A stretch of DNA of 64,000 nucleotides from Rhodococcus sp. SMB37 (GTDB taxonomy: Bacteria; Actinomycetota; Actinomycetes; Mycobacteriales; Mycobacteriaceae): the NCBI RefSeq assembly GCF_004345605.1, contig NZ_SLVY01000007.1:186001-250000 (forward strand). The letters run 5' to 3'. Each line of letters begins with the position of its first letter. Within the stretch, counting starts at the first letter, position 1. Position numbers and translations under genes: made by a program. The notes below the pieces were generated by a model that saw nothing but the letters and a program-made list of their open reading frames with translations, was not told the origin of the DNA and made no database searches. This document shows positions 2,947-64,000 of this stretch, piece after piece.

Positions 2947-3819
2947 TCACTGCGAGACGCGCCAGCGTGAGAGCCTGCGTTCGACGGTCACGAGGATGCC
3001 GTTGAAGACGAGACCGACGATCGAGATCGCGATGATGCCTGCGTACATGTTCGGGATCTGGAAGTTCAGCTGTGACGCGGTGATCAGATATCCGAGACCG
3101 GCTTTGGCCCCGACCATTTCAGCGGCGATGAGCACCAGGATCGAGGATGCCGCGGCCATCCGGATTCCCGTGAAGATCGTCGGCACCGCAGCGGGCAGGA
3201 TCACTTTCTGGAACAGCCGGTACGACGGAAGCCCCAGTGAGCGAGCCGATTTGACCAGCAGCGCATCCACCGTGCGCACACCCGAAATGGTGTTGAGCAG
3301 GATCGGGAAGGTGCTCGCGTAGACCACGAGGGCAATCTTCGAGGTCTCACCGATGCCGAGGATCAGGATGAACACCGGAAGCAACGCGAGCGCGGCCGTA
3401 TTGCGGAAGATCTCGAGGATCGGGTTGAGTGTTTCGGCGACCGGCTTGTACCAGCCGATCGCCACACCGAGCGGAACCGCGAACACGAGCGCGATCGCGA
3501 ATCCGGTGAGTGCGCGAGTCAGGCTCGCACCCAGATGCTGCGCGAGTTGGCCGCCCACGACCAGCTCCCGAAACGCACTGAGCACCGTGGTGAGCGGAGG
3601 CAGGAACACGTCGTCGACGAGACCCACGCGTGGCGCGATCTCCCAGAGGGCGAAGAACGCGACGATGGCGACGGCCGGCTTGAAGATCTTCCACGCCACT
3701 GCACGTCCGCGGTCCACAGCGGTTGACGCGGAGGCAACGGCCCGTGTGTCCGCCTTCCGTTCGATGACGGACGCAGGCTCTTCGATGGGCCGGATCAGTG
3801 TGGAACTAGTGCTGGACAT
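2947..3819 (-). CDS. ssuC: Sulfonate-type ABC transporter permease
   Basis: An inner-membrane permease of the BPD_transp_1 type (290 residues). The N-terminus is hydrophilic (about residues 1-40), followed by about six membrane spans. The cytoplasmic EAA-type loop reads RSARSLGLPSYRLFQKVILPAAVPTIFTGIR, close to SsuC/TauC. It carries the substrate across the membrane using energy from SsuB. The start overlaps the end of ssuB by 14 bases, showing translational coupling. The substrate class (sulfonate or taurine-like) is inferred from the neighbouring binding protein and monooxygenase; nitrate/bicarbonate homologues are related but less likely. Confidence 0.88.
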   Translation of the reverse strand: MSSTSSTLIRPIEEPASVIERKADTRAVASASTAVDRGRAVAWKIFKPAVAIVAFFALWEIAPRVGLVDDVFLPPLTTVLSAFRELVVGGQLAQHLGASLTRALTGFAIALVFAVPLGVAIGWYKPVAETLNPILEIFRNTAALALLPVFILILGIGETSKIALVVYASTFPILLNTISGVRTVDALLVKSARSLGLPSYRLFQKVILPAAVPTIFTGIRMAAASSILVLIAAEMVGAKAGLGYLITASQLNFQIPNMYAGIIAISIVGLVFNGILVTVERRLSRWRVSQ

Positions 3820-12905: not shown

Positions 12906-12957
12906 GCAACCCGACGAACTGGGCATTCTCTGTCGCCTGCCCTGTATGTCGGGTTGC
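12906..12957. repeat. 10-bp inverted repeat in the VOC/ectD divergent region
   Basis: GCAACCCGAC (12906-12915) and its exact complement GTCGGGTTGC (12948-12957) are separated by 32 bases, 70 bases before the ectD start. The pair could be an operator with two half-sites or a long hairpin in the ectD leader. No matching regulator is evident. Confidence 0.45.
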
Positions 12958-13026
12958 ATAACCGGCCCCGGAGTGAGACGGTCGAGAGGAACCATCGTCG
13001 ATCCTCGAGAGGGTGATTCGGAAGAC

Positions 13027-13914
13027 ATGCGCACGGTCGTGAAGGACGAATATCCGACTCGCAACCGAACTGTTTCGGAATCCATCGCGCGAAAAGATCC
13101 TGTCGTCTGGGGCTCCGCCACCGGACCACTCGATTCCTCTGCAGTCACGGAATACGAGAAAAGCGGATTCCACACGGCGAAGGCACTTCTCGCCGCCAAC
13201 GATGTCGGCAACCTATTGGAAGAAACATCACGACTCGGTCGTGAACTCGGCAACGACGAACGGGTGATCCGCGAGCAGGGCAGCGGTGATGTGCGCTCGA
13301 TCTTCGACGTACACCGCCTGAGCAATCTCGTCGACAGAATCATTCGACGTCCCGAAGTAGTGGGCATAGCAAGGCAATTGCTCGATTCGGACGTGTACGT
13401 CCACCAGTCCCGACTCAACGTCAAACCTGGATTCCGGGGCGGTCCGTTCTACTGGCACTCCGACTTCGAGACGTGGCACGCCGAAGACGGAATGCCGGCT
13501 CCTCGTGCGCTCAGCATCTCGATCGCATTGACCGAAAACTACGGATTCAATGGCGGATTGATGATCATGCCTGGTTCACACAAGACGTTCGTCTCGTGTG
13601 TCGGCGAGACTCCGGACGACTACTACCGAGAGTCGCTGGTCACCCATGTCCCGCCGACAGGGTCGCCCGACGAAGACACCCTGACCCGGATGAGCGCCGA
13701 GTGCGGCATCACCACGTTCCGCGGATCTGCGGGTTCGGCAACGGTTTTCGATTCGAACTGCATGCACGGATCGAACGGGAACATCACACCGCTCCCCCGT
13801 TCCAACCTGTTCGTGGTGTTCAACAGCGTCGAGAACACGCCTACCGAGCCGTTCGCGGCGAGCAAGCCGCGCCCGTCGTACCTCGGTAGCAGGGACTTCA
13901 CGCCCCTGGCCTGA
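13027..13914 (+). CDS. ectD: Ectoine hydroxylase (Fe(II)/2-oxoglutarate dioxygenase)
   Basis: A 295-residue PhyH-superfamily enzyme starting at MRTVVKDEYPTRNR, the usual EctD length. The EctD signature FYWHSDFETWHAEDGMP carries the HxD iron ligands, and the distal His is in DSNCMHGSNGN. EctD converts the compatible solute ectoine to 5-hydroxyectoine, using oxygen and 2-oxoglutarate. There are no ectABC genes around it, so it would act on ectoine made elsewhere or imported. Its last 17 bases overlap the end of a convergent membrane-protein gene relic. The ectD tail is duplicated at the far side of the accessory island (19924-19979). Confidence 0.93.
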   Translation: MRTVVKDEYPTRNRTVSESIARKDPVVWGSATGPLDSSAVTEYEKSGFHTAKALLAANDVGNLLEETSRLGRELGNDERVIREQGSGDVRSIFDVHRLSNLVDRIIRRPEVVGIARQLLDSDVYVHQSRLNVKPGFRGGPFYWHSDFETWHAEDGMPAPRALSISIALTENYGFNGGLMIMPGSHKTFVSCVGETPDDYYRESLVTHVPPTGSPDEDTLTRMSAECGITTFRGSAGSATVFDSNCMHGSNGNITPLPRSNLFVVFNSVENTPTEPFAASKPRPSYLGSRDFTPLA

Positions 13915-14063
13915 ACCGCCCTGGTCTGGACTGCTCGGCTCTGAGCTGCGCCGCCACCGCCCCGGGATCGTCGACCTGCAACGACAGGCGCGATACCGAG
14001 GCGGTGGCGCGTGTGTGTTCGAAGAAGGCCGGTCGCCGGACCTCGACGGGTTCGGTCAGCACC
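13858..14063 (+). repeat. Left copy of the direct repeat flanking the accessory island
   Basis: About 206 bases, from the last codons of ectD into the 3' end of a membrane-protein gene, align in the same orientation with 19924-20115. Long identical stretches include CTCGGTAGCAG, GGGATCGTCGACCTGC and GGTTCGGTCAGCACC. The copies differ by scattered substitutions and one 15-base (in-frame) indel. Homology stops sharply at 14063/20115 and near 13858/19924. Confidence 0.85.
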
Positions 14064-14065
14064 GG
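13898..14065 (-). pseudogene. 3' fragment of a membrane-protein gene (copy of the 19964-20809 gene)
   Basis: Minus-strand translation gives LTEPVEVRRPAFFEHTRATASVSRLSLQVDDPGAVAAQLRAEQ..., nearly matching the C-terminus of the intact gene at 19964-20809 (LTEPVVVRRPAFFDRTRSTASV...). The rest of the gene is absent. Its frame stays open, and five extra residues near the end reflect a 15-base insertion. It lies inside the left direct repeat. Confidence 0.8.
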
Positions 14066-14099
14066 CCAGAGGATGATTGGGACCTTGTACTCCCGCGAC

Positions 14100-14216
14100 A
14101 TCCACGTCGGGGAGTTGATTTTCCACAGTGCCAAGGGCTGTCGATATACGGCGGTTCGGTTCACGCAGCGGCTCGTGAATGCTGGCATCGCCCGTTCACC
14201 GGCAGTATCGGGATAA
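14100..14216 (+). pseudogene. IS3-family transposase (OrfB, rve) remnant
   Basis: The translation HVGELIFHSAKGCRYTAVRF followed by TQRLVNAGIARS matches the second catalytic-Asp region of IS3-family OrfB, normally of the form LIHHSDRGSQYT-xx-FT-x-L-x-x-AGI. The Asp is replaced (HSAKG) and no further transposase sequence surrounds it. It abuts the end of the left direct repeat, suggesting an insertion sequence took part in forming the island boundary. Confidence 0.6.
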
Positions 14217-14258
14217 TTGATCTGGATCAATGAAGTAAATTTCTGCGGTCTCTACGCT
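14217..14258 (+). promoter_or_regulatory. FNR-type box and class II promoter of the metal-transport operon
   Basis: TTGAT-CTGG-ATCAA at 14217-14230 is a perfect FNR consensus palindrome, with one more matching pair outside (ATTGATC...GATCAAT). A -10 hexamer TACGCT (TANNNT) lies at 14253-14258. The inferred start near 14265 puts the box centre at about -41.5, the class II activator position. The Crp/Fnr regulator in the same island has the E-x-x-S-R recognition helix that reads TTGAT half-sites. Confidence 0.75.
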
Positions 14259-14323
14259 GAGCTTGTCGACCAGAAGCGCTGAGGCGCGATCGACGTCGAA
14301 ATTCAGTCGAGGAGGACTGCAGT

Positions 14324-14557
14324 ATGAATACCACTACCACCACACACACCGTTCTTCGCGCCGAAGGCTTTTCTTGCCCATCCTGCGTGGCGAAAATCGA
14401 GAAGCGGGTTAACCGCTTGAAGGGCGTCAAGAAGGTGGAGGTCCACTTCGCGTCCGCTCGCATCGAGGTCGATCACGATGCAGAGGTGGCGTCGGTGGAC
14501 GACATCGTCGCAGCCGTAGCCAAGGCGGGATACACCGCCCGGCCCTCGGCATTTTGA
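14324..14557 (+). CDS. HMA-domain metallochaperone (CopZ-like)
   Basis: A 77-residue protein consisting of one heavy-metal-associated domain. The metal-binding motif is GFSCPSCVAKIEKRV (Cys18, Cys21), followed by the ferredoxin-like fold strands VKKVEVHFASARIEVDHD and VAAVAKAGYTARP. Such proteins hand soft metal ions (usually Cu+) to P1B ATPases or buffer them. It has a strong ribosome-binding site (GAGGAGG) and lies 87 bases before the ATPase gene, which has no HMA domain of its own, so the pair act as separated domains of one system. The Cys-Pro-Ser-Cys variant and the odd ATPase make the metal uncertain. Confidence 0.85.
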   Translation: MNTTTTTHTVLRAEGFSCPSCVAKIEKRVNRLKGVKKVEVHFASARIEVDHDAEVASVDDIVAAVAKAGYTARPSAF

Positions 14558-14644
14558 TTACGTCCGCCCCCGGGCATCCCAGATCAACCGGCCGAGGCGG
14601 GCACGGACAGATCCCAGGTCTCACGTCTGAAAGGACGTAGCGTC

Positions 14645-16645
14645 GTGAACAGGTTCCAACGGTGGATCTACGGCAAGTGGTCGGTTCCCACCACCGCCGG
14701 TGCGCTGATTGCCATTTCTCTGCTCCTCGAGCATGTGCTGAGCGAGTCGCTCAATCCCACTGTCGGGCCCCAGTGGTGGATCGACGCCGCGGAGCACTCC
14801 ACCACGTCCCCGGTCTTCACGCTGGCGAACGCACTGATGCTCGCCGCGGCGGTAGTGGCCGGCTACGGCATTGTTGTCGCGGCGTTGCGCGCCCTGACGG
14901 TCAAGCACCTCGCCATCGATCTTCTGGTCTCGATCGCGGCGATCGGTGCGATCATCATCGGCAACTTCTGGGAAGCGGCTGCGGTCACGTTCCTGTTCGC
15001 CATCGGCCACGCGCTCGAGGCAGCGACCATCAACAAGACTCGCTCGGCTCTGGCCGAACTGGTGGCCGTGGCCCCGGACACCGCTGTCGTCATGCGCAAC
15101 GGCGAACAGCAGCAGGTTCCCGCGTCCGAGGTCAGGATGGGCGAAATCGTTCTGGTGAAGAACGGCGCCAAGGTCCCGGTCGACGGACAGGTCGTGGCCG
15201 GTACCGGCGCGATCGACGAGGCCTCGATCACCGGTGAATCGATCCCGGTCGAGAAATCCAAGTCGGATCAGGTCTTTGCCGGTACGGTTTCCCGCGGTGG
15301 TTTCCTGCAGGTGCTTGCCACCGGCATCGGAGCCGACACGACCTTGGCCCGCATCATCCACCGTGTGGAGGACGCTCAGGACGCCAAGGCCAAAACCCAG
15401 GCGTTCATCGACCGGTTCTCCACCTGGTACACCCCGGCCGTCATGGTGCTGGCCCTTGTGGCCGGGCTGATCTCCGGCGACGTCGTCCTGGCACTGACCC
15501 TGCTGGTCATCGGTTGCCCCGGCGCGCTGGTCATCTCCATTCCGGTCGCGATCGTCTCCGGTATCGGCCGTGCCGCCCGCAACGGCATCCTCATCAAGGG
15601 CGGCGAGTTCCTCGAAACCTCCGCGAAGATCTCGGCCGTGGCGGTCGACAAGACCGGAACCCTTACCGAGGGTCGGCCGCAGCTGACCGACGTCGTGGTG
15701 TTGGCGCCCGACCTCGATCGTGTCGAGGTGCTGCGTTGGGCCGCAGCCGCCGAGGCAGGGTCGGAGCACCCTCTCGCCCGCCCGATCCTCGACACCGCCC
15801 GCGCCGAGGGAGTGGCGCCGAAGGGTATTCCAGGCACCGTCACCCCGGTGCCGGGCAAGGGCATCGTGACCGATGTCGAGGGCAGGCAGGTCCTCATCGG
15901 CAATATGCCCTTGTTGGAGCAGTACGGCGTCATCGACGACGTGGACGCCGCGGCCGCGGCAAGAGAACTTGCCGCGGCGGGTAGGACCCCCATGATCGTG
16001 GCCGTCGACAGTGCGGTCATCGGCGTCGTCGCTGTGGCGGACCAGATTCGCCGGGACGCGCCGGAGATGGTCCGGCGATTGCACGACGCCGGCGTCGAGA
16101 AGGTCGTCATGCTCACCGGTGACACCCGACTGGTGGCCGAGGCCGTCGGCAAGGCGACAGATATCGACGAAATCCACGCCGGCCTCCTTCCCGAGGACAA
16201 GCTGGACGCGGTGTCGGAGTTGCAGCGGCAGGGACACACGGTGGCCATGGTGGGCGACGGCGTGAACGACGCCCCGGCCCTGGCCACCGCGGACATCGGG
16301 GTGGCCATGGGAGCGGCAGGTTCGGCCGTCGCCGTGGAGACCGCGGACATCGCGCTGATGGGCGACAACCTGCTCAAACTCCCGGAGTCGATCGGGTTGG
16401 CCAAGCGCACGGTGGCGGTGATGCAACAGAACATCGCGATCGCTCTGTTCACCGTCGTCGTTCTCTTGGCGGGTGTCTTCTTCGGTGGTGTGACGATGTC
16501 GATCGGGATGCTCGTCCACGAGGGTTCGGTGCTCATCGTGATCATCAACGCCATGCGACTGCTGCGAAATACGCAGGGTTCCACCGCGAACCCCCAGAGA
16601 AAGCAGATCCGAGCGGCAACCGACGCCGAGACGATTGCTGTCTGA
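14645..16645 (+). CDS. P1B-type heavy-metal-translocating ATPase with unusual CPG/HEGSV motifs
   Basis: A 666-residue metal-export ATPase in the cell membrane. Standard P-type motifs are present: TGES (EASITGESIPVEKS), the phosphorylated Asp in DKTGTLTEG, the HP motif in GSEHPLARP, and GDGVNDAPAL. The transmembrane-6 motif reads IGCPGALVIS, so the usual CPC/SPC triad is CPG. Transmembrane 8 reads LVHEGSVLIVIINAMRLLR, like the HEGS/T motif of P1B-4 (Co/Fe/Ni) pumps. There is no N-terminal metal-binding domain. It is encoded between an HMA chaperone and a cupin behind an FNR-type promoter. Metal specificity cannot be assigned: motifs are mixed between Zn/Cu and Co/Fe types. Confidence 0.88.
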   Translation: MNRFQRWIYGKWSVPTTAGALIAISLLLEHVLSESLNPTVGPQWWIDAAEHSTTSPVFTLANALMLAAAVVAGYGIVVAALRALTVKHLAIDLLVSIAAIGAIIIGNFWEAAAVTFLFAIGHALEAATINKTRSALAELVAVAPDTAVVMRNGEQQQVPASEVRMGEIVLVKNGAKVPVDGQVVAGTGAIDEASITGESIPVEKSKSDQVFAGTVSRGGFLQVLATGIGADTTLARIIHRVEDAQDAKAKTQAFIDRFSTWYTPAVMVLALVAGLISGDVVLALTLLVIGCPGALVISIPVAIVSGIGRAARNGILIKGGEFLETSAKISAVAVDKTGTLTEGRPQLTDVVVLAPDLDRVEVLRWAAAAEAGSEHPLARPILDTARAEGVAPKGIPGTVTPVPGKGIVTDVEGRQVLIGNMPLLEQYGVIDDVDAAAAARELAAAGRTPMIVAVDSAVIGVVAVADQIRRDAPEMVRRLHDAGVEKVVMLTGDTRLVAEAVGKATDIDEIHAGLLPEDKLDAVSELQRQGHTVAMVGDGVNDAPALATADIGVAMGAAGSAVAVETADIALMGDNLLKLPESIGLAKRTVAVMQQNIAIALFTVVVLLAGVFFGGVTMSIGMLVHEGSVLIVIINAMRLLRNTQGSTANPQRKQIRAATDAETIAV

Positions 16646-16746
16646 AACCGAAGCCGGGCGTGGCCCGTCACCCCGGACCCCGCGCGGTACCGACAACCAC
16701 CATCCACCCGCGACAGATCACCACCAACACACGCAAGGAGTGTGCA

Positions 16747-17172
16747 ATGAGCAAGCAGAACTTCTCCCTCGAGGGCAACGTCGAGCATTTCACGATCGAG
16801 GACGTGGCCCGGGCCAACCCGGACTTCCGCAAGGTGCTGTGGACCGGCAAATACGCCCAGATCGTGGTCATGACCATCCCGGTCGGCGGTGAGATCGGGG
16901 ATGAGGTCCACGAGAGCACCGACCAGATCCTGACCTTCGTCTCCGGAACAGGCGAAGCCGTGCTGAACGGGCACACCCACATGGTCGAGGCCGGCGATCA
17001 GTGCGCGGTCGCCGCGGGTGCTCGCCACAACTTCCGCAATATCGGCGACGAACCTTTGGTGCTGTACACGATGTACAGCCCGCCGGAGCACGCCGCCGAC
17101 GGCGCCTATGCCACCAAGGAAGAGGCCGACGCGGCCGAGGCCGCCGGCGAGGACGAGCCCCCGCATGCCTAG
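16747..17172 (+). CDS. Cupin-domain protein of the metal-transport operon
   Basis: A 141-residue small cupin starting at MSKQNFSLEGNVEHF. It has cupin motif 1 (GDEVHESTDQILTFVSGTGEAVLNG) and motif 2 (VEAGDQCAVAAGARHNFRNIGDEPL) with His and Glu residues suited to metal binding. The tail (DGAYATKEEADAAEAAGEDEPPHA) is acidic, Ala-rich and probably disordered. Similar proteins are found beside stress and metal-resistance genes in actinobacteria. It follows the ATPase by 101 bases, probably in the same transcript. Enzymatic activity is unknown. Confidence 0.85.
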   Translation: MSKQNFSLEGNVEHFTIEDVARANPDFRKVLWTGKYAQIVVMTIPVGGEIGDEVHESTDQILTFVSGTGEAVLNGHTHMVEAGDQCAVAAGARHNFRNIGDEPLVLYTMYSPPEHAADGAYATKEEADAAEAAGEDEPPHA

Positions 17173-17173
17173 C

Positions 17174-17402
17174 GAAGGATTCCTCACGCATCCTCACCAC
17201 CGCGAAACCTGACACCGCACGCGAACTCGGCCGGGCGCCCGTCCAACCCACGGACGAGAGTCTGGAGAAGATCACCGAAGTAATCGGGTACGGCCTCGTG
17301 GACCCCACCGTGACGGCGCGCTACGGCCTGGACGACACTGCCCGGGCGATCGCCGCCGTCGAGGAAGGGCACACCGTAGGCACGCTCGTCGTCGAGCCGT
17401 GA
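17174..17402 (+). pseudogene. C-terminal fragment of a zinc-type alcohol dehydrogenase / quinone oxidoreductase
   Basis: The translation ends ESLEKITEVIGYGLVDPTVTARYGLDDTARAIAAVEEGHTVGTLVVEP. This is the standard C-terminus of MDR-family reductases (typically DTAxAIAAVEEGHTxGKVVV). Neither the catalytic nor the nucleotide-binding part is present. No start codon or ribosome-binding site is evident, and the fragment begins at the cupin stop. Confidence 0.7.
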
Positions 17403-17449
17403 CCTGACCGGCGGGGACAGTACGCCGAACGCACCGGGCAGCCGATGAG

Positions 17450-17478
17450 CTCGCTGCTCGCACGACGCGAGCAGCGAG
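17450..17478 (+). terminator. Terminator-like hairpin, 12-bp perfect stem
   Basis: CTCGCTGCTCGC, loop ACGAC, GCGAGCAGCGAG. It follows the alcohol dehydrogenase remnant and probably ends the chaperone-ATPase-cupin transcript. The rest of 17403-17608 shows no gene; a 16-base palindrome TCCTGAGCGCTCAGGA (17599-17614) covers the stop of the next gene. Confidence 0.65.
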
Positions 17479-17608
17479 TACCTCGGAAATGGTGGTGCTC
17501 CGGCAGGTGGCGCGGTCGGATGCCCGAAAGGGGTCAGATTTCAGGCGGCGTTGACAGCGCCGCAATTCGTAAGCTCCCAGAGAGCCAGGAGTGAGGGATC
17601 CTGAGCGC

Positions 17609-17953
17609 TCAGGAGTATGATTGTTGGCCTTGCTGGCTCGTCACCGTGGTAAGTAGAAAGACGCTGTCGGCGAGGGCCAGCACCGAATGGCGTTCATGGG
17701 TGAGAATCCACAGTTCGCCTTCGCCGAATTCCCCTTGAGACTCCTCTTCGAGGTCGACGCGAACTCGTCCCGCGAGTACTTGGAGGCTCGCCGCCGGCGG
17801 GGAATTGTGTTCGGCAAGCCGGGTGCCCTCCCGAAGTGCGATCACCGTCTGACGGAGTGGTCCATCATTGGCGACGAGTGCGGCGCTGCGGCCGTGTTTG
17901 TCCGTTCGCGCCGTGGAGAGATGGGATTCGGTCAGCTCTCTGAGATTCGCCAT
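17609..17953 (-). CDS. Small cupin-domain protein
   Basis: A 114-residue single-domain cupin starting MANLRELTESHLSTART. The beta-barrel core includes LREGTRLAEHNSPPAASLQVLAGRVRVDLEEESQGEFGEGELWILTHERHSVLALADSVFLLTTV, similar to the small LuxR/DUF-type cupins annotated near Crp/Fnr regulators and stress genes. A possible metal-binding His is in AEHNSPP. It points opposite to the metal-transport operon. An AAAGGA-type ribosome-binding site precedes the ATG. The role is unknown. Confidence 0.75.
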   Translation of the reverse strand: MANLRELTESHLSTARTDKHGRSAALVANDGPLRQTVIALREGTRLAEHNSPPAASLQVLAGRVRVDLEEESQGEFGEGELWILTHERHSVLALADSVFLLTTVTSQQGQQSYS

Positions 17954-18074
17954 GATCGTCCTTTCCGCGTGCCTGCTGGGTCTGTCTCAACCTACGTGGG
18001 CGAACCGATCGAACTTCGTCGTGGTCGACACCCGCCTGCGATCCGCGGCCGCCGCAGCCGCCGACGTGATCGCG

Positions 18075-18242
18075 GCAGCTTCCCCAGGAGCGAAGCGACC
18101 CGAAAACCGGCAGCGACTCGCCTCGAGTATCCGTATACAGCGGATCCGGCTGCACGTCGGAGGTGTTCTTCAGCAGACCGTCGATGATGTAGACCATGGG
18201 GCACGCTTCACCGTCGAACTGCCCATACCCACCACCGGGCAC
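18075..18242 (-). pseudogene. Tn3-family transposase (TnpA) remnant
   Basis: Minus-strand translation gives YGQFDGEACPMVYIIDGLLK then NTSDVQPDPLYTDTRGESLPVFG. This resembles the conserved Tn3 TnpA region of the form YVIEGLL-xNxSDIQPDxxHADTQGQS-x-PVFG, here degraded (DTRGES for DTQGQS). Only about 55 residues of a protein near 1000 residues remain. It records a past Tn3-type transposon in the island. Confidence 0.6.
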
Positions 18243-18356
18243 TGACCCGCTGCGTTCCGAGCCCGAGGGAAAGAACGCAGGACTGCTACCGCGAACGCGG
18301 TAGCCACCCGAGAAACCGACATCTGTCGAGCCGACGGTCAGGTGACCGAAAGCTAC
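18243..18356. other. Short gap with one hairpin, no gene
   Basis: Between the Tn3 remnant and the MerR-type promoter there is no coding signal. GCTACCGC-GAAC-GCGGTAGC (18285-18304) is an 8-bp hairpin that could be a terminator or part of a lost mobile element end. Confidence 0.4.
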
Positions 18357-18388
18357 TTGCCCCTATACATGGGTACAGGGTTCAGAAT
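18357..18388 (+). promoter_or_regulatory. MerR-type promoter/operator
   Basis: TTGCCC (18357-18362) and CAGAAT (18383-18388) are separated by 20 bases, the stretched spacing of MerR-controlled promoters. The spacer contains the dyad CCCTATAC-ATG-GGTACAGGG. It lies directly before the MerR relic at 18395, so the operator outlived its regulator. Confidence 0.6.
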
Positions 18389-18394
18389 GGCGGT

Positions 18395-18640
18395 ATGCGC
18401 AGAAGCGAGCTGGCAACCCGTGCCGGAGTCAACGTCCAGATACTGCGATACGTCCAGACACTGCGATACTACGAACGCCGGGGCCTGCTGGCGCAACCAC
18501 CGCGGTCACCGTCGGGGTATCGGGCCTACCCGCCCGGCACCGGTGGTCCGGTTCATAAAACGAGCCCAAGCCCACGGGTTCAGCCTCGACCGGACAAGGC
18601 ACGCCGGGCAGTGCGGTGGGGAGAAGACCGGTGACGGGTG
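18395..18640 (+). pseudogene. MerR-family regulator, broken by internal duplication and frameshift
   Basis: The start MRRSELATRAGVNVQ, followed by TLRYYERRGLLAQPPRSPSGYRAYPP, is a typical MerR DNA-binding domain. A tandem duplication repeats the 'I/T-LRY' codons (ILRYVQTLRYY), adding residues to the recognition region. After YRAYPP the frame shifts: the continuation VVRFIKRAQAHGFSLD is found one frame over. The effector-binding half is missing. The gene cannot make a normal regulator. Confidence 0.75.
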
Positions 18641-18650
18641 AGGAGCGGCG

Positions 18651-19364
18651 ATGACCTCGGGACGCCTCCACGGTGACGCGGCGCACGATCACGACCATCG
18701 GTTCCGATGCGTGAGCCTCGTGCCGTTGTTCGCGGCGCTGTCGGAGAAAGACCGGCATCGGATTGCCGAATCAGCGGTCACACGACGGTACGAACGCGGC
18801 GAACACGTCTTCCGGGCCGGGGACCGGCTGGACCTGCACATCGTCCATCGGGGGCGGGTCAAGGTGTACCGGCTGCTCGAATCCGGCAGTGAACAACTGA
18901 TCCGTATCCTGGGGACGGGCGAGTTCCTCGGCGAGACCGCGGTGCTGTCCGAAACGGAAGTCGACCACTTCGCCGTCGCCCTCGACGACGCGGAGGTGTG
19001 CTCGATCGACCGGCGCCGGATTCTCGCCGTCCTCACCGAACGGCCGTCGGTGGCGGTGACGATGTTGCAGACCGTCTCGCAACGGTTGTCGGCCGCCGAA
19101 CAGATGGTGTCGTCGTTGACCGGGCGGTCGGTCGAGCAGCGACTGGCCGAGCATCTGCTGCAGCTGGCATACGATGCAGATTCGCTACGGTTCCGCTTGC
19201 CGTCCAGCAAGAAGGACCTCGCCTCGTATCTGGGCACGACAGCAGAAACGCTCAGCCGTCGGCTCTCGGCGTTGCAGAAGGCCGGGGCCATCCGTCTCGG
19301 CCCCGGTCGATTCGTGGAGATCTGCGACGAGCAGGTGTTGCGGTCCGGTGCCCACGCCGGCTGA
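18651..19364 (+). CDS. Crp/Fnr-family transcriptional regulator
   Basis: A 237-residue regulator with an N-terminal cyclic-nucleotide-binding-type beta-roll (about 25-140: GEHVFRAGDRLDLHIVHRGRVKVYRLLESGSEQLIRILGTGEFLGETAVL) and a C-terminal winged helix. The recognition helix GTTAETLSRRLSALQ has the E-x-x-S-R pattern of FNR, which reads TTGAT. The N-terminus is His/Asp-rich (HDHDHRFRC, with Cys20) and a second Cys (Cys117) sits where FNR has a cluster ligand, so iron-sulfur, metal or redox sensing is possible, though FNR's four-Cys set is not complete. A perfect FNR box precedes the metal-transport operon of the same island, the probable target. Confidence 0.88.
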   Translation: MTSGRLHGDAAHDHDHRFRCVSLVPLFAALSEKDRHRIAESAVTRRYERGEHVFRAGDRLDLHIVHRGRVKVYRLLESGSEQLIRILGTGEFLGETAVLSETEVDHFAVALDDAEVCSIDRRRILAVLTERPSVAVTMLQTVSQRLSAAEQMVSSLTGRSVEQRLAEHLLQLAYDADSLRFRLPSSKKDLASYLGTTAETLSRRLSALQKAGAIRLGPGRFVEICDEQVLRSGAHAG

Positions 19365-19779
19365 CCGACGACCGAAACCGGGGGTGACCCGGCTGCGGAC
19401 CTGGGGTGCGGGGTGAGAACAGGGATCAGACGCCGATGAGCGAACCCATGCTGAAGGCCAGGGTCGCGATCGCCCCGGCGCGCATCGATGTCCTGGACAA
19501 CCCCCGAAACACCTCGGCGACGACTACCTTGGTGGCGCGGTCCTACACTCCGCCCCGCGCCCCGGATCCACTGAAAAATCTTGACTACAAACCTACTACA
19601 CCCCTCGGGTGTGGACAGGGGCGTCCGGGTCCGGCCACACCGACCGAGGAAGGTATCCGACGGTATAGGCGCTCACGAATGTTCCCTTCGGGCGACAACT
19701 CGGCCGCCACCCGTCACCCCAACCCCGCAGGTCGGTCGCCGAGGATTCCTGATTCCGGCCGAAACGCATATCGATGCCT
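19365..19779. other. Non-coding or unrecognised stretch
   Basis: No recognisable gene. One open frame begins MSEPMLKARVAIAPARIDVLD (from 19437), but it matches no family I know and its composition is unconvincing. An inverted repeat ACACCC-CTC-GGGTGT (19598-19612) follows TTGACT (19581-19586) and might be a decayed metal-responsive operator. Confidence 0.35.
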
Positions 19780-19925
19780 CTTTGGCGAGGGTGAGCGCGG
19801 CGCGCTCACGGTCGGTGCACAGGTCGGTGTCACGCCAGGCGGGCAGGACGGCGATGCGATGCGGTGATTCCCGCCCGCGAGGGCGTCGCGGGTGTGCGCG
19901 TGGAGACAGTAGGCGCAGCCATTGC
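19780..19925 (-). pseudogene. AhpD/carboxymuconolactone-decarboxylase-family remnant
   Basis: Minus-strand translation gives NGCAYCLHAHTRDALAGG, the CxxC active-site motif of AhpD-like proteins. After a frameshift it continues RIAVLPAWRDTDLCTDRERAALTLAKEA. Both ends are missing. Its N-terminal break coincides with the boundary of the right direct repeat, so it was truncated when the island boundary formed. Confidence 0.65.
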
Positions 19926-20115
19926 GAGCAGGCCACGTCCGTCGTACCTCGGTAGCAGAGACTTCATGCCCCTGTCTTGAACTGCTCTGCTCTGAACTGT
20001 GCGGCCACCGCCTCGGGATCGTCGACCTGCAACGACAGGCGCGATACCGAGGCGGTCGAGCGTGTGCGGTCGAAGAAGGCCGGTCGCCTGACTACGACGG
20101 GTTCGGTCAGCACCA
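19924..20115 (+). repeat. Right copy of the direct repeat flanking the accessory island
   Basis: Same orientation as 13858-14063. It begins with the last 18 codons of an ectD copy (ASRPRPSYLGSRDFMPLS, then TGA) and continues into the 3' end of the intact membrane-protein gene. It lacks the 15-base insertion of the left copy. Confidence 0.85.
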
Positions 20116-63691: not shown

Positions 63692-64000
63692 CTACTCCGT
63701 TTCCCGGGTGCGGCGTCGATACCGCACCGTGCACGGCTGCGCGAGCTGCACCACCATCTTCGAGTGATCGTTCCGGTAGGTATCCGCGGGCTGGGCAAGC
63801 TCGAATTCGAAGTCGCGCAACAGGATCGAGAAAATAGCCTTGAGCTGCATCAACGCGAATGCCGCGCCGACGCACCGGTGCCGGCCGGCACCGAAGGGAA
63901 TCCACGTCCACCGGTTGACGATGTCTTCCTGGTTCGGGTCGATGTAGCGACCCGGGTCGAACACATCAGGATTCGGAAAGTCCTCGGCGATGCGGTTGGA
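63692..64000 (-). CDS. cyp51: CYP51 sterol 14-alpha-demethylase, C-terminal part (5' end outside window)
   Basis: About 103 C-terminal residues of a cytochrome P450. The heme-binding loop is FGAGRHRCVGAAFALMQLKA, with the axial Cys. The surrounding NRWTWIPFGAG, AIFSILLRDFEFELAQP, DTYRNDHSKMVVQLAQP and VRYRRRT match mycobacterial CYP51B1 almost word for word. It would remove the 14-alpha-methyl group of a sterol in three oxidations. It is the first readable gene of the cyp51-ferredoxin-NTF2-unknown-GMC operon, whose upstream part continues outside the window. Confidence 0.92.
   Translation of the reverse strand, partial: SNRIAEDFPNPDVFDPGRYIDPNQEDIVNRWTWIPFGAGRHRCVGAAFALMQLKAIFSILLRDFEFELAQPADTYRNDHSKMVVQLAQPCTVRYRRRTRETE

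Follow-up and report, generated by a model that had tools for sequence, protein, structure and literature searches.

A 64,000-nucleotide stretch of the Rhodococcus sp. SMB37 genome (contig NZ_SLVY01000007.1, positions 186,001–250,000; hereafter the window) carries a 5.9-kb cassette, at about 14064–19923, that encodes a Crp/Fnr-family regulator (P0004) together with a heavy-metal-associated (HMA) metallochaperone, a P1B-type metal ATPase (P0002) and a cupin protein. We propose that this is probably a self-contained, acquired cassette in which P0004 activates the class II promoter of the HMA–ATPase–cupin operon from the palindrome TTGATCTGGATCAA, giving thiol- or metal-gated export of a divalent ion. 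The cassette is an insertion, its sequence elements and promoter geometry are in place, and regulator, box, spacing and ATPase are widely conserved as one module. The circuit is very likely real, as a new form of a widespread type, FLP-like and linked to pumps, and is not a unique find.

In the mechanism that we infer from these features, the cassette would act as a horizontally acquired, self-contained metal-handling unit. A P0004 dimer would bind TTGATCTGGATCAA, centred at −41.5, and would activate the class II promoter of the operon for the HMA chaperone, the CPG-type ATPase (CPG being its motif in transmembrane segment 4, TM4) and the cupin. More tentatively, the signal may be the thiol state and/or metal occupancy of Cys20 in the N-terminal helix and Cys117 in the beta-roll, with a His-rich tail assisting and the reduced or metal-loaded protein turning the pump on. 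The HMA protein would hand metal to the pump, itself without an HMA domain, for presumed export, and the cupin would buffer or bind metal.

The inserted cassette and its promoter

The features of the cassette and its edges are as follows.

13858–14063, no strand: left direct repeat (end of ectD and a fragment of the right-flank gene) and left insertion edge; repeat comparison, genus relatives
14217–14230, + strand: FNR-type palindrome TTGATCTGGATCAA; pattern match, element and spacing shared by related loci
14253–14258, + strand: predicted −10 element TACGCT; lies 22 bases past the box, the gap also seen for TANNNT in related loci
14324–14557, + strand: HMA metallochaperone, 77 amino acids, CPSC motif; PF00403, 6.6e-15
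14645–16645, + strand: P1B-type metal ATPase P0002, 666 amino acids, GTG start, TM4 CPGALVI, TM8 GMLVHEGSV; TIGR01525
16747–17172, + strand: small cupin protein, 141 amino acids; PF07883, 1.8e-15
17205–17402, + strand: C-terminal remnant of an NADP-dependent oxidoreductase; blastp of the oxidoreductase of locus L006 to the open reading frame 17001–17402, translation
18651–19364, + strand: Crp/Fnr-family regulator P0004, 237 amino acids, Cys20, Cys117, E-T-L-S-R helix; PF00027 and PF13545, AlphaFold2 model
19924–20114, no strand: right direct repeat and right insertion edge; repeat comparison, genus relatives

A gap of 22 bases separates the palindrome from TACGCT, and with the predicted +1 at 14265 the centre of the box falls at −41.5, which together with the matching −10 is the layout of a class II CRP/FNR promoter with a predicted start site. 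A first-pass annotation, made from the letters alone, had described a perfect box near −41.5 from a TANNNT element, ahead of HMA chaperone, P1B ATPase and cupin genes, in an island that also encodes a Crp/Fnr protein with an E-x-x-S-R helix. All of this was borne out: the three products match PF00403, TIGR01525 (570 bits, cut-off 346) and PF07883, and P0004 carries E199, S202 and R203. TTGATCTGGATCAA is the sole perfect TTGATN4ATCAA within the window, and the 6,225,368-base genome holds five such sites versus none for the reversed pattern. The whole genome holds a single TTGAYN4RTCAA-N21-22-TANNNT composite, the one at the 14217 promoter, and reversed-pattern controls gave zero. A one-mismatch FNR box, TTGAGCTGCATCAA, lies at 63840–63853, close to the window end.

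The island of the first-pass annotation likewise stands. Direct repeats about 190–205 bases long bracket the cassette, and their copies are 84% identical over 13858–13939/19924–20005 and 89% identical over 13919–14063/19970–20114. In three genus relatives (G010, G011 and G016), the left flank, which includes the ectoine hydroxylase gene that lies directly left of the insertion in the window (12946–13914, TIGR02408 above cut-off), is contiguous with the right-flank gene and a single repeat copy marks the empty site. Because the relatives carry one repeat copy, the insertion probably came in together with a homologous segment. Within the genus, the regulator was found at E ≤ 1e-50 in 1 of 18 genomes, namely its own, and the cupin at E ≤ 1e-30 in two, the second lying beside an ATPase gene (82% identity) and an HMA gene.

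Recurrence of regulator, box and pump

Named bacterial genomes were scanned with a four-sequence regulator alignment, and the best 80 of 524 confirmed relatives were taken as loci (labelled L). A CPG ATPase lies within 5 kb of the regulator in 45 of these 80 (42 of 70 when 3 kb was present on both sides), with an HMA gene in 44 of the 45 and a Dps gene beside the circuit in 14, 12 of them from Companilactobacillus. Boxes were counted in 89 loci, namely the 80 scan loci, the window and eight plasmid loci (L008, which has no regulator, was excluded), and boxes identical both in their 14 bases and in the 46 bases that follow were counted once. The density of TTGAYN4RTCAA boxes is 1.00 per kb in the stretches ahead of HMA, ATPase, Dps, cupin or regulator genes versus 0.025 per kb elsewhere, and such a box is present in 44 of 54 ATPase loci. 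Exactly 22 bases separate box and TANNNT in 67 of the 75 distinct upstream boxes of ATPase loci, window box included, versus 15 at gap 27, 19 at gap 36 and at most 5 at others up to 65; the 75 boxes are not independent events because many come from close relatives.

Counted by locus, the strict box-N22-TANNNT composite stands upstream of HMA, ATPase, Dps or regulator genes in 33 of the 45 CPG loci (51 sites) and in 2 of the 35 loci without a CPG ATPase. Other gaps from 12 to 35 gave 0–9 sites in the CPG loci, and 300 Markov shuffles averaged 0.01 locus, never more than 1. The composite was found in 20 of 29 genus-like labels, which were taken from record titles and keep several Bacillus species apart.

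The same arrangement emerged from the pump. In a sample of 396 genomes from the phylum, the ATPase is present at E ≤ 1e-140 in 13, counting the own genome; without the own genome, the sample holds 13 matches (11 CPG, 2 CPC) in 12 genomes. HMA adjoins the ATPase in all 11 CPG loci, and an E-x-x-S-R Crp/Fnr gene is adjacent in 10; the remaining locus, L122, has none in 13.8 kb yet has the site. Exactly one TGAYN4RTCA with TANNNT at class II distance was found at the HMA start in 9 of the 11 CPG loci and none on the other strand, while L127 and L129 have no class II site. These sites lie at −92 to +162 from the longest possible HMA start and, being measured from that start, therefore before the likely true one. 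The two CPC loci, one of which (L118) is a 4.2-kb contig, have neither an HMA nor a Crp/Fnr partner.

Regulators of the pump-first loci are 30–34% identical to P0004 and have a different cysteine layout. The close P0004 type looks rare in the phylum, because a regulator search of the same sample at E ≤ 1e-35 matched its own genome only. A second regulator subgroup (L121, L123–L131 and L014), mostly from the actinobacteria of the phylum sample, has a conserved P-x-x-C upstream of the usual Cys20 position; it is tied to the same CPG pumps, and its boxes are mostly degenerate TGAYN4RTCA.

Plasmids carry the module as well. On two Microbacterium plasmids, regulator, HMA, ATPase, cupin and oxidoreductase genes stand together, and on a Corynebacterium marinum plasmid class II sites precede HMA, hypothetical, ATPase and oxidoreductase genes. 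Regulator, HMA and ATPase genes with a Dps or Dps-like gene were found on one plasmid each of Weissella, Leuconostoc, Carnobacterium, Aerococcus, Enterococcus, Listeria, Lactococcus and Staphylococcus. FNR-type control of the exporter operon, as first annotated, is thus supported by comparison, very probably as activation from the box. That such control would be unusual did not hold up, because chromosomes and plasmids of Bacillota and Actinomycetota carry, again and again, this type of regulator and of ATPase with this box and spacing.

As to neighbouring genes, cupin relatives 76–80% identical adjoin the ATPase in L006, L007, L008 and L133, and in related operons (Microbacterium and Cellulomonas plasmids) the NADP-dependent oxidoreductase gene comes after the cupin gene. 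Genes for the iron exporter FetB and for VIT1 occur in 2 of 106 loci each. FetAB and VIT1 were considered as members of the same regulon and rejected; because no composite precedes them, the iron link is one of neighbourhood only. In L070, a class II composite at 3473 lies 147 bases before a gene for a Ric/YtfE-type di-iron repair-like protein (by eye). Inside the cassette, the open reading frames 17609–17953 (− strand, 114 amino acids) and 18342–18641 gave no match in Pfam or NCBIfam, and the translation shows, by eye, a MerR-like N-terminal fragment (an open reading frame remnant) at 18395–18540, between operon and regulator gene.

The regulator and its signal

P0004 combines a cyclic-nucleotide-binding-like domain (PF00027) with HTH_Crp_2 (PF13545), as in FLP, and its recognition helix is E199-T-L-S202-R203. 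The E-x-x-S-R helix of the FNR family reads TTGA, and it is kept in 88 of 89 regulators. A search of the own genome with P0004 at E ≤ 1e-3 returned one other Crp/Fnr protein; HTH_Crp_2 gave 15 matches there, 6 above the cut-off of 27 bits and only 2 strong (68 and 65 bits; next 29). Because the other strong protein carries a GlxR/CRP-type helix (RETVNKA) and P0004 has E-T-L-S-R, P0004 appears to be the only good FNR-type candidate reader of the box among the strong matches in the genome. Reading of the box by another regulator was considered and set aside, there being no second strong FNR-type candidate; four weaker HTH_Crp_2 matches lie just above the cut-off.

The cysteines of P0004 are Cys20, Cys117 and Cys225 only. 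The first-pass annotation, from which Cys225 was absent, had described a His/Asp-rich N-terminus with Cys20 and Cys117 that is not a standard FNR cluster site, and both parts of this description are correct. The [4Fe-4S] cluster of FNR has four cysteine ligands, three of them near the N-terminus; unlike Gram-negative FNR, P0004 has Cys20 alone in its N-terminal part and no such four-cysteine site. A classical FNR with an Fe–S cluster was rejected because P0004 has too few cysteines. Cys20 is kept in 86 of 89 regulators and Cys117 in 88, with a spacing of 98 residues in 72 of 86. For a separate alignment (A4), regulators with a similarity ratio of at least 0.80 to one already chosen were dropped. 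The AlphaFold2 model of P0004 (predicted local distance difference test score 89.8) has a helix at 10–22 and a strand at 114–119. P0004 has the one N-terminal and one beta-roll cysteine of FLP, and Cys20 and Cys117, the latter aligned with an FNR cysteine, look like this two-cysteine pattern, not evidently a new sensor.

Histidine makes up 15% of the 20 residues before Cys20 versus 2.1% after it. This His-rich tail is family-wide, occurring also in regulators without a nearby ATPase; as a mark of ATPase-linked regulators it was rejected, being present in both groups (by eye). The earlier proposal of metal or redox sensing in a new way was thus not sustained, since the two cysteines are family-conserved and FLP-like and the tail is shared across the family.

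P0004 resembles FLP, FlpA and FlpB of lactic acid bacteria in its two cysteines instead of four, its TTGAT-type site, which is the type of the FLP target, and its link to metal homeostasis; the likeness is one of features. In L. casei FLP, an intramolecular disulphide reportedly alters DNA binding. A Lactococcus plasmid relative has the same ATPase type adjacent, with class II boxes, and the identity to P0004 of plasmid relatives from these bacteria is mostly 32–40%. In lactic acid bacteria, the regulon of FlpA is classed with metal homeostasis (PMC3616900, in excerpt). Unlike these systems, the present one has cupin and oxidoreductase genes, an actinobacterial setting and an insertion particular to the window.

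The best surviving alternative, which we hold to be somewhat doubtful, is a pure redox or oxygen switch, in which P0004 would be an FLP-type dithiol–disulphide regulator or a labile Fe–S binder, the pump would be expressed in a reduced or oxygen-poor cytosol, and metal would not be directly sensed. Two near-invariant cysteines at near-constant spacing favour it, as does the alignment of Cys117 with a cysteine of A. fischeri FNR. So does Cmr of M. tuberculosis, like P0004 an actinobacterial Crp/Fnr protein with two cysteines, whose Cys36–Cys131 disulphide weakens DNA binding (PMC5499769, in excerpt). However, a metal input is suggested too, because the sequence before Cys20 is rich in histidine and the linked genes are metal genes.

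Several observations weigh against the proposed P0004-activated export circuit. No CPG ATPase lies within 5 kb of 35 of the 80 regulators (28 of 70 with 3 kb on both sides), the strict composite is not upstream in 12 of 45 CPG loci, and 20 further composites, in 18 of the 45, fall outside the windows counted. Some of these are the palindrome's other reading and several precede no clear gene; that of L025 precedes an HMA gene more than 5 kb from the regulator, that of L090 a divergent HMA gene and that of L094 an acyl-CoA dehydrogenase-like gene (by eye). The Microbacterium sites deviate (ATGATCTATGTCAA), two Microbacterium regulators lack the His tail, and on a Ligilactobacillus plasmid the regulator has neither an HMA nor an ATPase gene close by. 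The window's own regulator gene lies 1.5 kb past the operon; remnants of genes occupy part of the space between them, and the regulator gene has no box ahead of it. The CPSC motif of the HMA partners leaves Cu(I) possible as cargo. Finally, the closest regulators among the scan loci, L016 (61%) and L022 (58%), adjoin hemerythrin genes (L016 10683–11258, L022 near 1078).

This last point, with the distance between regulator and operon, raises the possibility that P0004 reads the box, but that its ancestral role was control of a hemerythrin-type gene and the pairing with the pump is recent. The L016 and L022 stretches have no CPG ATPase, the contig of L022 ending just before the regulator. We consider this history unlikely, as the actinobacterial L019 (51%) and L025 (47%) do have a CPG ATPase nearby and the promoter in the window is complete in its class II layout.

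The pump clade and its cargo

A tree of 85 ATPases (FastTree, core region) groups the 71 CPG sequences in a single clade (support 1.0); the 14 others lie outside it and no other motif falls inside. A TM8 motif HE(A/G/L/V)S(V/I) was found in 60 of the 71 by a regular expression, which missed 11. Less expectedly, the CPG clade seems to fit neither P1B-2 nor P1B-4. P1B-2 pumps (ZntA/CadA) have CPC in M4 and a metal-binding Asp in M6, whereas P0002 aligned to ZntA (4umv) shows CPG and HE at these places. P1B-4 ATPases are described by SPC in M4 and HEGxT in M6 (PMC8880997, in excerpt), whereas P0002 has CPG and HEGSV. The pump can be linked to P1B-4 because it retains HE in TM8, has no HMA match of its own in Pfam and finds its best PDB match in the P1B-4 structure 7qbz, with 539 bits for the P0002 profile versus 511 for ZntA and 497 for CopA, a modest lead. 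P0002 is thus like the P1B-4 ATPases CoaT, PfeT, PmtA and CtpD in its nearest structure and lack of an HMA match, and its TM8 HEGS resembles HEGST of sCoaT; unlike them, it has CPG and not SPC, no T of HEGxT and a separate HMA protein partner. Members of the class reportedly export Fe(II), Zn or Cd (PMC8880997 and PMC10654040, both in excerpt). Of the cargo we are least sure; it may be divalent (Fe, Zn, Co or Cd) and not Cu(I). On a haloarchaeal plasmid (L015, 4559–6698), an HMA gene and a CPG ATPase gene lie next to a different helix-turn-helix regulator.

A copper(I) export system under FNR-type control is, in our estimation, quite unlikely. CPSC is present in most neighbouring HMA proteins of related loci, the HMA matches include CopZ-type models and CueP is encoded near the C. 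marinum locus. Nevertheless, those CopZ models score below their cut-offs, TM4 is CPG and not CPC, TM8 is HExS, and the copper model TIGR01511 reaches 373 bits, below its cut-off of 397, whereas the cadmium-type TIGR01512 scores 511 bits, above its own. Weakest of all, a chance palindrome with a housekeeping regulator controlling the operon is highly improbable: the genome has four other perfect boxes (three inside coding frames and one apparently intergenic, the frames judged by eye), but none of the four has the −10 spacing, and the chance reading was rejected because the genome has no second composite and related loci keep it at the same place. The four boxes were also considered as further targets of P0004 in the own genome and rejected as such.

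Metal exporters are usually under ArsR, MerR, CsoR, Fur or DtxR proteins. A recurrent circuit in which a distinct clade of ATPases is under an activator of the FNR type, with two cysteines and a tail rich in histidine, suggests that redox state and metal export are directly coupled. In its boldest form, which we offer tentatively and regard as rather unlikely, P0004 would be a dual-input (metal and redox) activator, acting through its His-rich tail, Cys20 and Cys117 and dedicated to an uncharacterised P1B subclass (TM4 CPG, TM8 HExS) with its own metal specificity, and regulator, class II promoter, HMA and pump would move between phyla as a module. Our literature search, which covered titles, abstract openings and few subscription papers, found no description of the circuit in Actinomycetota or of a CPG P1B subclass. 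The mechanism of two-cysteine FLP-type proteins is debated (PMC5039431, in excerpt), and the cassette offers a clean single-promoter test system for them. It also exposes a pump clade without an assigned cargo in the literature searched, one that is found on plasmids of Enterococcus, Listeria, Leuconostoc and Weissella as well.

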